Positions 27,467-46,579 of a stretch of DNA of 64,000 nt are shown piece after piece; the stretch's first letter is position 1, and each line of letters begins with the position of its first letter. A program made the translations under genes and the position numbers. The DNA comes from Pantoea phytobeneficialis (GTDB taxonomy: Bacteria > Pseudomonadota > Gammaproteobacteria > Enterobacterales > Enterobacteriaceae): positions 2,247,720 to 2,311,719 of the forward strand of contig NZ_CP024636.1 of NCBI RefSeq assembly GCF_009728735.1, in the 5' to 3' direction. The notes beneath the pieces were generated by a model that saw only the letters and a program-made list of their open reading frames with translations, was not told the origin of the DNA and did no database searches.

Positions 27467-27498
27467 TATCGCTCCTTGGTCAGCACCACCAGAGTTTA

Positions 27499-31752: not shown

Positions 31753-31872
31753 AAAAAAAAGCCGGCGGATAAGCCGGCGTTGTACGAATCAAATGTGCTA
31801 TGCAGTAATTCAAAAAAGGAAGTAAGACAATATGGAGCGCAACGCCCATCGCTTGACGTTGCATTCACCTGC
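31753..31872 (-). ncRNA. fnrS: FnrS small regulatory RNA
   Basis: The minus strand reads GCAGGTGAATGCAACGTC at the 5' end. It then contains GCGATGGGCGTTGCGCTCC, the U-rich stretch TTGTCTTACTTCCTTTTTTG, and an end hairpin GCCGGC-TTATCC-GCCGGC followed by eight T residues. This follows E. coli FnrS nearly base for base, about 120 nt. FnrS is made without oxygen under FNR control and, with Hfq, represses mRNAs of aerobic enzymes such as sodB, maeA and gpmA. The position next to zntB is also the E. coli one. An FNR-type site lies at about -42. Confidence 0.96.
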
Positions 31873-43262: not shown

Positions 43263-43300
43263 TAGTGAAATTGATTAACTGATAGTGAAATTCATCATGG
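43263..43300. promoter_or_regulatory. PspF upstream activating sites
   Basis: Two direct copies of TAGTGAAATT (43263 and 43283), 20 nt apart, lie 65-115 nt upstream of the psp sigma-54 promoter. They resemble the E. coli PspF sites (TAGTGTAATT type). The second runs into the pspF start codon, so PspF bound here would also limit its own expression. Confidence 0.75.
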
Positions 43301-44292
43301 CGAATGGCAACGATAACCTGCTGGGCGAATCTAACAACTTTCTTGAAGTGCTGGAACAGGTTTCCCGCCTTGCCCCACTGGAAAAACCGGTGCTGGTGAT
43401 TGGTGAACGCGGCACCGGCAAGGAACTTATTGCCAGCCGCCTGCATTTTCTCTCCGACCGTTGGCAAGGCCCGTTTGTCTCCCTGAACTGTGCCGCATTA
43501 AATGAAAACCTGCTCGACTCTGAATTGTTCGGCCATGAGGCAGGGGCATTCACCGGCGCACAAAAGCGCCATCTTGGCCGCTTTGAACGTGCCGATGGTG
43601 GCACATTATTTCTGGATGAGCTGGCGACAGCACCGATGCTGGTACAGGAAAAACTGCTGCGGGTGATTGAATATGGCCAACTGGAACGCGTGGGTGGCAA
43701 CCAGTCGTTGCAGGTAAACGTACGTCTGGTGTGTGCCACCAATGAGGATCTTCCTGCGCTGGCGGCGGCGGGAAAATTTCGCGCCGACCTGCTGGATCGA
43801 CTGGCGTTTGATGTGGTGCAGCTACCGCCGCTACGCGAAAGGCGCAGCGATATTCTGGTGATGGCGGAGCACTTTGCGATTCAGATGTGCCGTGAACTGG
43901 GCTTGCCGCTGTTTCCCGGTTTCACCGAACAGGCGCAGCAGACGCTATTAAATTACGGCTGGCCGGGAAACGTGCGAGAGCTGAAAAACGTGGTGGAACG
44001 TTCGGTTTATCGCCATCACAGCGTCGACACTCAACTGGATAACATCATTATCAATCCGTTTGCGCCACGAAATACGCCTGCGCCCGATGTGGTCAGTGGA
44101 GAAAGTGGCGTGCCTGCCCTGCCACTCGATTTGCGTCAATGGCAAAATCAGCAGGAGCGCCAACTGGTTGATCGCAGCCTCGCAGAGGCGAAATATAATC
44201 AACGCCGTGCGGCCGACTTGCTGGGGGTGACCTATCACCAGCTACGGGCAATGATGAAAAAACACGGGATTCAGGTGCGGGACGAAGGTTAA
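43297..44292 (+). CDS. pspF: Sigma-54-dependent activator PspF
   Basis: 331 residues from the ATG at 43297 (the E. coli-equivalent start). The AAA+ domain lacks a receiver domain: Walker A GERGTGKE, the sigma-54-contacting loop GAFTGA, Walker B TLFLDELA and arginine fingers in FRADLLDRL. A C-terminal HTH is in YNQRRAADLLGVTYHQLRAMM. It activates pspA and is restrained by PspA. The Shine-Dalgarno is poor, in keeping with low constitutive levels. It is divergent from pspA and the promoter region is shared. Confidence 0.97.
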   Translation: MANGNDNLLGESNNFLEVLEQVSRLAPLEKPVLVIGERGTGKELIASRLHFLSDRWQGPFVSLNCAALNENLLDSELFGHEAGAFTGAQKRHLGRFERADGGTLFLDELATAPMLVQEKLLRVIEYGQLERVGGNQSLQVNVRLVCATNEDLPALAAAGKFRADLLDRLAFDVVQLPPLRERRSDILVMAEHFAIQMCRELGLPLFPGFTEQAQQTLLNYGWPGNVRELKNVVERSVYRHHSVDTQLDNIIINPFAPRNTPAPDVVSGESGVPALPLDLRQWQNQQERQLVDRSLAEAKYNQRRAADLLGVTYHQLRAMMKKHGIQVRDEG

Positions 44293-44312: not shown

Positions 44313-44370
44313 GTAGCAGCGCGATTTAGCGCGCTGTTTTGGAAAGGCGCGCGATAAATCGCGCCGCTAC
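44313..44370. repeat. REP-like inverted pair after pspF
   Basis: GTAGCAGCGCGATTTAGCGC faces GCGCGATAAATCGCGCCGCT across about 14 nt, starting 20 nt after the pspF stop. The right copy runs directly into the 119-bp tandem repeat. Confidence 0.78.
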
Positions 44371-44662
44371 GGGAGCATACCTGAGTATATGACCGGGGTG
44401 AGCAATCGCAGCCAACGCCGCTACGTTGTTGTAAACAGGCTTTTCGAAATATTTTGTGCTGTAGCAAGGCGGCAAGGGCGCGAATCCCCGGGAGCATACC
44501 TGAGTATGTGACCGGGGTGAGCAATCGCAGCCAACGCCGCTACGTTGTTGTAAACAGGCTTTTCGAAATATTTTGTGCTGTAGCAAGGCGGCAAGGGCGC
44601 GAATCCCCGGGAGCATACCTGAGTATGTGACCGGGGTGAGCAATCGCAGCCAACGCCGCTAC
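44371..44662. repeat. Tandem 119-bp repeat, two and a half copies
   Basis: Copies begin at 44371, 44490 and 44609. The first two are full (119 bp) and differ at one base (A at 44389, G in the second); the third stops after 54 bp. Within the unit, GGGAGCATACCTGAGTATGT and the flanking CCCCGG...CCGGGG form a nested palindrome. The 83-bp blocks 44461-44543 and 44580-44662 run from GTAGCAAGGCGGC to GCCGCTAC as long imperfect palindromes. These look like a dispersed enterobacterial intergenic repeat amplified by slippage or unequal exchange. There is no coding signal. Confidence 0.93.
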
Positions 44663-44678
44663 AGTGCAAAATATGAAG

Positions 44679-44769
44679 AAAAAAAAAGCCCGCAGAAGCG
44701 GGCAACTTAATACTGGAAGCAATGTGAGCAATGTCGTGCTCTTCTTCGGTAGAGCCACCGTCGAAGCGC
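44679..44769 (-). ncRNA. ryhB: RyhB iron-responsive small RNA
   Basis: The minus strand at 44740-44708 is identical over 33 nt to the conserved core of E. coli RyhB (GCACGACATTGCTCACATTG, then CTTCCAGTATTA). A 5' hairpin precedes it (CTTC-CGGT / ACCG-GAAG) and a terminator follows (GCCCGC-TTCT-GCGGGC plus nine T). Predicted ends give 91 nt, as in E. coli (90 nt). TTTACA-18-TATTAT and Fur-type operators lie upstream. RyhB, with Hfq, represses iron-using enzymes when iron is scarce. In E. coli it lies elsewhere (yhhX-yhhY); here it sits between pspF and sapA, so it may be the main copy or a paralogue. Confidence 0.94.
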
Positions 44770-44774
44770 AGAAG

Positions 44775-44828
44775 AATAATAATCATTCTTATTATCATCT
44801 GTAAAGCCCTAATTGAGAATTTTTCTCA
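44775..44828 (-). promoter_or_regulatory. ryhB promoter with Fur-type operators
   Basis: On the minus strand -35 TTTACA (44800-44805) and -10 TATTAT (44776-44781) are 18 nt apart and place the start at about 44769. The promoter is embedded in AATAATAATCATTCTTATTA and TCAT (plus strand, 44775-44798), overlapping Fur hexamers. A second Fur-like palindrome TGAGAATTTTTCTCA is at 44814-44828. The latter is also upstream of sapA. Confidence 0.8.
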
Positions 44829-44956
44829 TTTCCACACTAACGGTGTGATTACCCCGCCGTCGGGATGGCGAAAAAGACAGCACAATTCGCCTTAATTTGG
44901 GGAGTACCCGGCGTTTGCGATACACTCTCGCTATTGCCTCAGAATCGTTGAGTTCT

Positions 44957-46579
44957 ATGCCAAAATTAATCCCCACGCTGCTGCTCGGTCTCAGCGTATT
45001 GAGTGCGTCTGTCTGGGCTGCACCTGCGAACGACATCCGTCAAAGCGGCTTTGTTTATTGCGTTAACGGCACGGTAAATACCTTCAATCCGCAAATGGCG
45101 AGTAGCGGTCTGGTGGTCGATACCCTCGCCGCGCAGCTTTACGACCGTCTGCTGGATGTCGATCCTTACACCTATCGCCTGGTGCCTGACCTCGCGCAGA
45201 GCTGGGAGGTGCGGGATAACGGCGCGACTTACCGTTTCCATCTGCGCAAAGATGTGCCCTTCCAGCACACCAATTGGTTCACCCCTACCCGCAATATGAA
45301 TGCCGACGATGTGGTGTTCAGCTTTGCCCGCATGTTCGATCGCCAGCACCCCTGGCATAACGTCAACGGTGGCAGCTATCCCTATTTCGATAGCCTGCAA
45401 TTTGCTGACTCGGTGCAGAGCGTGAAAAAACTCGACAACGATACCGTCGAAATTCGCCTGAACAGCCCGGATGCATCATTCCTGTGGCATATCGCCACCC
45501 ATTACGCACCGGTGCTCTCCAAAGAGTACGCTGACAAGCTGACTGCTAAAGGCCAGCAGGAGCGACTGGATCGGGAACCGGTCGGCACCGGCCCGTTCCA
45601 GCTTAGCGAATACCGTACCGGGCAATACCTGCGCCTGGCGCGCAATCCCCATTACTGGAAAGGCGTGCCGCGTTTACAACAGGTGGTCATCGACCTCGGT
45701 GTCGGCGGGACCGGTCGCTTATCAAAATTGCTGACCGGCGAGTGTGATGTGCTGGCCTATCCTGCTGCCAGTCAGCTCAGCATTCTGCGTGACGATCCCC
45801 GCCTGCGCATGACGTTACGTCCGGGGATGAATATCGCCTATCTGGCATTTAATACCCGTAAACCGCCGCTGGATCGCCCCGAAGTCCGCCACGCGCTGGC
45901 GCTGGCAATCAATAATGAACGTCTGATGGAGTCGATTTATTACGGCACCGCGGAAACGGCGGCCTCGATTCTGCCGCGCGCGTCCTGGGCGTATGATAAT
46001 GATGCGCGGGTGACCGAATACAATCCGGCCAAAGCGCGGGAACAATTGAAAGCGTTGGGGGTGGAGAATCTCCATCTGCGGCTGGTGGCGCCGACAGCAT
46101 CGCAGGCGTGGAATCCCAGCCCGCTAAAAACTGCTGAATTGTTACAGGCCGATTTGTCACAGGTGGGGGTACGCGTCACCATCGTGCCGGTAGAGGGGCG
46201 TTTTCAGGAAGCGCAACTGATGGCGATGAACCATGATATTACCCTGACCGGCTGGGCCACCGACAGCAACGATCCCGATAGCTTCTTCCGCCCGCTGTTG
46301 AGCTGTGCGGCGATTCGTTCGCAAACCAACTACGCACACTGGTGCTCGCCAGCATTTGATGAAGTGTTGCAACGCGCCCTGCTGTCACAACAGTTGTCAG
46401 CTCGCATTGAGAGTTATGACGAAGCACAGCAGATCCTGGCGCGAGAGTTGCCGGTGTTGCCACTGGCGTCATCGCTGCGATTGCAGGCGTATCGCCACGA
46501 TATTAAAGGTCTGGTACTGAGTCCATTTGGCAACGCCTCGTTCGCAGGCGTTTATCGTGACGAACGCAGCGAGGAATAA
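44957..46579 (+). CDS. sapA: Peptide-binding protein SapA
   Basis: 540 residues of the SBP_bac_5 family with a signal peptide ending SVWA. It is the periplasmic component of the SapABCDF ABC importer, linked to antimicrobial peptide resistance and, in E. coli, putrescine export. It matches E. coli SapA across its length ([43 protein letters not shown]). I start at the ATG at 44957, which begins the signal peptide; an upstream start would add 20 uncharacteristic residues. sapB follows after 2 nt. A Fur-like palindrome and ryhB lie upstream. Confidence 0.96.

Follow-up and report, generated by a model that had tools for sequence, protein, structure and literature searches.

Using a combination of approaches (covariance and protein-family models, comparison of genomes, computed folds and duplex energies), we found that positions 44680-44769 of the minus strand are very probably the second of two RyhB genes of Pantoea phytobeneficialis. 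The positions are those of the window, i.e. the whole 64-kb stretch of DNA (64,000 nucleotides) that was analysed. This gene is likely silenced by Fur and transcribed when iron is scarce, and its core is predicted to pair with messenger leaders such as that of sdhC. In bacteria possessing RyhB, iron-loaded Fur blocks the transcription of this small RNA, which is made in low iron, works with Hfq and pairs with the leaders of mRNAs encoding iron-using proteins. By analogy, we propose that iron-loaded Fur silences the window ryhB; that iron scarcity allows the RNA to be made; that this RNA would act with, and presumably bind, Hfq; and that its core would pair with the leaders of mRNAs for iron enzymes, for instance sdhC, thereby blocking their translation. 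The general RyhB mechanism outlined here is in line with the excerpts of PMC4211561.

A RyhB gene between pspF and sapA

The Rfam model of RyhB (RF00057) matched positions 44743-44680 of the minus strand in full (model positions 1-67), with 73.5 bits and an E-value of 6.9e-12 in cmscan, the gathering score being 55 bits. An earlier note, written from the letters of the DNA, had placed a RyhB gene at 44679..44828 and had named this very test, which thus bears out its identification. It had also claimed an identity of 33 nt with the E. coli RyhB core, and an exact run of that length is indeed the longest one in common with the ryhB locus of E. coli strain A3. The features by which the family is recognised, namely a score above the RF00057 cut-off, the conserved core and a Rho-independent terminator with its T run, were all found in the window copy (Table 1). 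The transcription start is predicted at position 44769, as deduced from the promoter, and the nine T of the terminator, counted by eye, occupy positions 44687-44679. Both the TTTACA-18-TATTAT promoter and the nine-T terminator of the earlier note were correct in coordinates and anatomy, and its placement of the gene between pspF and sapA was confirmed on both flanks by NCBIfam models.

Table 1. Position and basis of the features of the ryhB locus in the window.
Feature	Positions	Strand	Basis
RyhB small RNA, predicted transcript of ~90 nt	44680..44769	-	RF00057 match; start inferred from the promoter
Sigma-70-type promoter	44776..44805	-	-35 TTTACA at 44805-44800, spacer of 18 bp, -10 TATTAT at 44781-44776
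Fur-like 19-mer (15/19) overlapping the promoter	44778..44796	-	Match to the Fur 19-mer consensus
Palindrome AATGAGAAAAATTCTCAATT just upstream of the -35 box	44811..44830		Kept in most of 29 aligned sapA-side copies
Pairing core, 29 nt identical to the canonical copy (from A at 44740)	44711..44739	-	Comparison of the two copies of the genome
5' arm, predicted stem-loop	44741..44769	-	Computed fold
Rho-independent terminator, GCCCGC/GCGGGC stem and nine T	44679..44703	-	Sequence and computed fold
pspF, flanking gene	43285..44292	+	NCBIfam NF008622, 639.4 bits (cut-off 529)
sapA, flanking gene, divergent from ryhB	44960..46579	+	NCBIfam NF011689, 1088.4 bits (cut-off 560)

The window also comprises a tandem array (44370-44662) located between the pspF stop codon and the RyhB terminator, in which a 119-bp unit is repeated 2.5 times, the copies being 99% alike; we take this unit to resemble the enterobacterial ERIC repeat. 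Another small RNA gene, fnrS, occurs at 31757-31872 on the minus strand (123.3 bits for a cut-off of 60).

A putative Fur-controlled promoter

The earlier note had described the promoter as embedded in Fur hexamers. A Fur-like site does overlap the promoter, but it is not perfect, the best 19-mer (44778-44796) matching the Fur consensus at 15 of its 19 positions. Among 2000 stretches of 150 bp drawn at random from the window, 0.5% reached such a score. Five 19-mers of the 64-kb window score at least 15/19, the other four being grouped in two places, near positions 27494 and 30174. The genome encodes both Fur (163.9 bits) and Hfq (103.3 bits). From the promoter and the imperfect Fur-like site overlapping it, we propose that the window ryhB would likely be repressed by Fur. 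The palindrome just upstream of the -35 box is possibly a second Fur-type element, or a sapA-side element.

Two RyhB copies in the genome

The earlier note had left open whether the window copy was the sole RyhB of the lineage or a second one, and the genome-wide search decided in favour of the latter. This search gave two copies, C1:332235-332300 (86.3 bits) and the window copy (73.5 bits). The former is flanked by a gene for GntR (581.6 bits for a cut-off of 433) and by one for a YhhY-type acetyltransferase (190 bits, under its cut-off of 236). In E. coli strain A3 the gene order around the ryhB match is yhhY, ryhB, yhhX, yhhW and gntR. Since the first copy thus lies between a YhhY-type gene and gntR, as in E. 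coli, we assign C1:332235-332300, on the basis of gene order, as the E. coli-type (hereafter canonical) RyhB and the window copy as the second one. The window copy does not share the E. coli-type location beside yhhY and gntR, its neighbours being pspF and sapA; hence, the earlier statement that the location differs from that of E. coli is true of the window copy, but the genome also keeps a RyhB in the E. coli neighbourhood.

The two copies of this genome have a longest common run of 29 nt, and 68 of 97 aligned columns are identical; the RNA of the canonical copy is predicted at ~97 nt. Their 5' arms differ from each other, and the 5' arm of the window copy also differs from that of E. coli RyhB, as the earlier note had observed for the 5' hairpin when it suggested that the range of targets may differ. 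The two types of copy were compared in 29 of the 56 genomes of the genus with at least two RyhB matches, which were picked because their first copy was already among the best-scoring loci. In these 29 genomes, the mean pairwise identities of the sapA-side and canonical copies were, respectively, 0.773 and 0.547 upstream of the -35 box; 0.948 and 0.963 in the promoter; 0.846 and 0.656 in the 5' part; 0.995 and 1.000 in the core; and 0.753 and 0.900 in the 3' part. According to the 5' and 3' values, each copy guards a different end. Judged by sapA, the nearest named genome is that of Pantoea sp. AS-PWVM4.

The 5' arm and other readings of the window copy

In the predicted 5' stem of the sapA-side copies 89.1% of the cells pair, versus 31.0-57.9% for slid versions of the stem; the value of 89.1% was reached by 22 of 500 shuffles. 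Covariation in this stem is weak: two pairs vary on both sides, which is equalled by 181 of 500 shuffles. Of the 17 distinct rows, 12, including that of the window copy, cannot form a further stem pair that was put in by hand (columns 4-31). The production of a small protein from the RyhB RNA was considered and rejected by eye, because the overlapping 125-aa open reading frame reads through the terminator and because the 5' arm carries insertions or deletions in two genomes (G052 and G053).

Other explanations of the window copy were weighed against the proposal of a working second RyhB gene. That the match arose by chance, or stands for a RyhB-like RNA from a different family, was rejected as having a likelihood close to nil, in view of the full-length match above the curated RF00057 cut-off, with its E-value of 6.9e-12, and of the 33 nt identical to E. 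coli ryhB. It is also very improbable that the window copy is a silent or decaying relic. What speaks for such a fate is the sapA-type copy of the reduced genome G041 (2.4 Mb), which scores 31.8 bits, i.e. under the cut-off, and has apparently lost its terminator (as judged by eye); but the promoter, the core and the terminator are kept over 29 genomes, and the orthologue of Erwinia amylovora was detected by both RNA-seq and Northern blot, according to the excerpts of PMC4070566.

It is possible, though somewhat unlikely, that the sapA-side copy is a specialised RyhB, the conserved 5' arm of which provides a second element, for pairing or for stability, and has targets of its own; the general iron-sparing response would then be left to the canonical copy. 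This idea draws on the higher identity of the 5' part in the sapA-side copies than in the canonical ones of the same 29 genomes, together with the lower identity of their 3' part, and on the insertions or deletions in G052 and G053, which speak against a coding cause of the conservation. In addition, the excerpts of PMC4211561 propose differing 5' ends to explain the differing targets of the Salmonella RyhB pair. However, no target specific to the arm was found, short of a genome-wide search, the covariation of the stem is weak, and the conservation of the arm may reflect RNA stability or Hfq binding alone. Returning to the proposal of two working RyhB genes, their differing 5' arms may give each RNA its own stability or extra targets.

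Predicted targets

The duplex predicted between the sdhC leader and the 29-nt core reached -28.3 kcal/mol, none of 300 shuffles being as good, where duplex energies ignore accessibility. The pairing site extends from about 37 to 7 nt upstream of the GTG taken as the start codon. When the whole pre-terminator part of the RNA was used instead of the core, the proportion of shuffles as good as the sdhC leader was 0.307 for the sapA-side copy, which is not better than chance, and 0.067 for the canonical copy. The core-sdhC pairing was also predicted in all 31 leaders of the genus (at no more than 2 of 200 shuffles in 25 of them, and at 3 or 4 in the rest), these leaders being that of the present genome and those of the 30 loci returned for 61 genomes, i.e. 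near-identical relatives rather than independent tests. None of ten control genes of the window reached the sdhC level, the best two being at 7/200 and 9/200 shuffles; other than sapA and pspF, these genes bear the names that we presume from gene order. The sdhC leader (L117:1465-1500) possesses a strong GGAGG motif about 25-30 nt before the GTG, which is assumed to be the start codon, and from the GGAGG on it is nearly invariant in the genus.

Turning to other leaders, RyhB acts on fur in Yersinia enterocolitica, according to the excerpts of PMC10342277. In the present genome, the fur leader gave no significant pairing, whichever of three segments of the RNA was used (0.267, 0.473 and 0.527 of shuffles). 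The sodA leader of this genome has an 8-nt complement to the core, and its duplex with the core beats all but 0.7% of shuffles. Nevertheless, sodA was rejected as a RyhB target, because the core complement occurs in 6 of 21 leaders only and lies in one arm of an apparently variable leader hairpin. Since the cores of the two copies are identical, it is most likely that the two RNAs share their targets and add up.

The textbook target of RyhB is sodB. The Fe/Mn superoxide dismutase domain was matched exactly once per genome in all 61 genomes of the genus. The dismutase of the present genome (L116, C1:99489) is SodA, as it scores 422.6 bits with the NCBIfam Mn model (cut-off 363) and 183.6 bits with the Fe model (cut-off 348). 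The N-terminus of the enzyme is SodA-like in all of the 21 genomes (out of 61) that were examined. With one dismutase gene per genome, which is sodA in this one, sodB seems to be absent from the genus Pantoea. The search is able to find a second gene, since at least two dismutase matches were obtained in 68 of 198 genomes drawn from the family; a single match occurred in 118 of these 198 genomes, so that a single gene is not special to Pantoea. The literature search on Pantoea and sodB returned nothing on the absence of sodB among the matches listed.

Distribution in Pantoea and beyond

At least one RyhB match (E <= 0.001) was found in 60 of 61 genomes of the genus and at least two in 56 of them, where strict filters can lose weak matches. 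A single match was obtained in G017, G030, G041 and G051 and none in G043, several of these five genomes being reduced or incomplete. In G041 (L178), the promoter and the 5' arm of the sapA-type RyhB are still recognisable, which we read as a copy in decay in a genome that is itself reduced. In all 29 genomes compared, the second copy is a neighbour of sapA; pspF was seen on the opposite flank, no further than about 1.2 kb away, in 21 of them. The first copy has a YhhY-like gene, gntR or both as its neighbours in each of the 29.

Among sapA loci from named genomes, 27 of 55 have a RyhB beside sapA. They include all 20 Pantoea/Erwinia/Winslowiella-like loci (two of them labelled Enterobacter and one an unclassified MAG), one of 20 further loci (Edwardsiella) and six of 15 other loci (two Edwardsiella, three Symbiopectobacterium and one labelled Serratia). 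A family-wide draw of 198 genomes yielded RyhB in 123 genomes and a sapA-like match in 129. Matching the two by hand gave at least 35 genomes in which RyhB lies upstream of sapA and is read from the other strand. The distance ranges from 0.2 to 5.6 kb and, among the matches listed, is within 1 kb in 21 genomes. Given this distribution, the sapA-side copy appears to be old and widespread. We regard it as a vertically kept paralogue, RyhB genes next to sapA occurring far beyond Pantoea. From this distribution, rather than from a tree, we infer a loss in the lineage leading to E. coli instead of a gain elsewhere.

A plasmid-borne origin of the window gene was rejected, as none of the ten matching records of the plasmid collection covers 80% of the window RNA, the core and the 3' part alone being aligned. 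Separately, a third RyhB-like core followed by a terminator (56.3 bits; L176:3001-3061, contig C3 of G040) was noticed beside aqpZ on plasmid pPAT9B02 of Pantoea sp. At-9b, and the same 171 bases are present in NC_014839.1. No Fur-like box was found upstream of this core, the best 19-mer scoring 10/19. It is possibly a RyhB mimic or an RNA derived from a 3' end.

Relation to published RyhB genes

In the literature searched, PMC4070566 was alone in bringing together RyhB, pspF and sapA. According to Table 1 of this paper, the ryhB of E. amylovora is a minus-strand gene flanked by pspF and sapA, is positive in Northern blot and has been deleted. In an hfq mutant its level falls to 2.7% and 2.1% of that of the wild type, and the second RyhB of E. 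amylovora, Hrs15, is 73% identical to it. Similarly to the window copy, this gene combines the RyhB family with the same strand, the same flanking genes and the same orientation, in a genome with a second RyhB elsewhere. The two differ in that the E. amylovora RNA is expressed and measures 140 nt by RNA-seq, whereas the window RNA is predicted from the sequence at ~90 nt. Because the E. amylovora gene was published between pspF and sapA, the window gene is an ordinary, further orthologue of a published gene, known in kind and in place.

Within the genus, P. ananatis similarly has two RyhB RNAs. In the excerpts of PMC6749038, RyhB and RyhB2 are listed among its Hfq-dependent RNAs, and qRT-PCR gave no lowering of ryhB2 in the hfq mutant. 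The P. ananatis 'ryhB' pPAR246 (82 nt, minus strand) lies ~12.6 kb from fnrS and the window copy ~12.9 kb from it; owing to these matching distances, pPAR246 is most likely the orthologue of the window copy. The RyhB2 primers given in the same excerpts match the canonical-locus copy of G005 (locus L092), so that the RyhB/RyhB2 naming is the reverse of the Yersinia convention in the excerpts of PMC4211561.

Outside the genus, E. coli RyhB (yhhY-yhhX) resembles the window copy in the 33-nt run, the terminator and the Fur-like promoter, but it occupies another place and has another 5' arm, blastn aligning positions 26-90 or 30-90 of the query alone among the genomes listed; its true positional match is the canonical Pantoea copy. 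According to PMC4211561 (excerpts), Salmonella RfrB/RyhB-2 and Yersinia RyhB2 are, like the window copy, second RyhB RNAs with a kept core and a different 5' end; unlike the window copy, Salmonella RfrB/RyhB-2 is carried by a genus-specific island.

Biological significance

A bolder scenario, which we regard as unlikely, is that Pantoea lost sodB and kept two RyhB genes, the 5' arm of the sapA-side copy being a second functional element. The genus would then operate a rewired, two-RNA iron-sparing circuit built from an old paralogue of the Enterobacterales, which is missing from this place in many E. coli-like lineages. Apart from this scenario, the present data settle which RyhB is which in Pantoea, namely one in the E. 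coli position and one beside sapA; match counts give at least two copies in 56 of 61 genomes. They also remove a naming trap, in that the published primers for P. ananatis 'RyhB2' fit the canonical copy. Finally, the apparent absence of sodB makes Pantoea a natural setting in which to ask what RyhB does without its textbook target.
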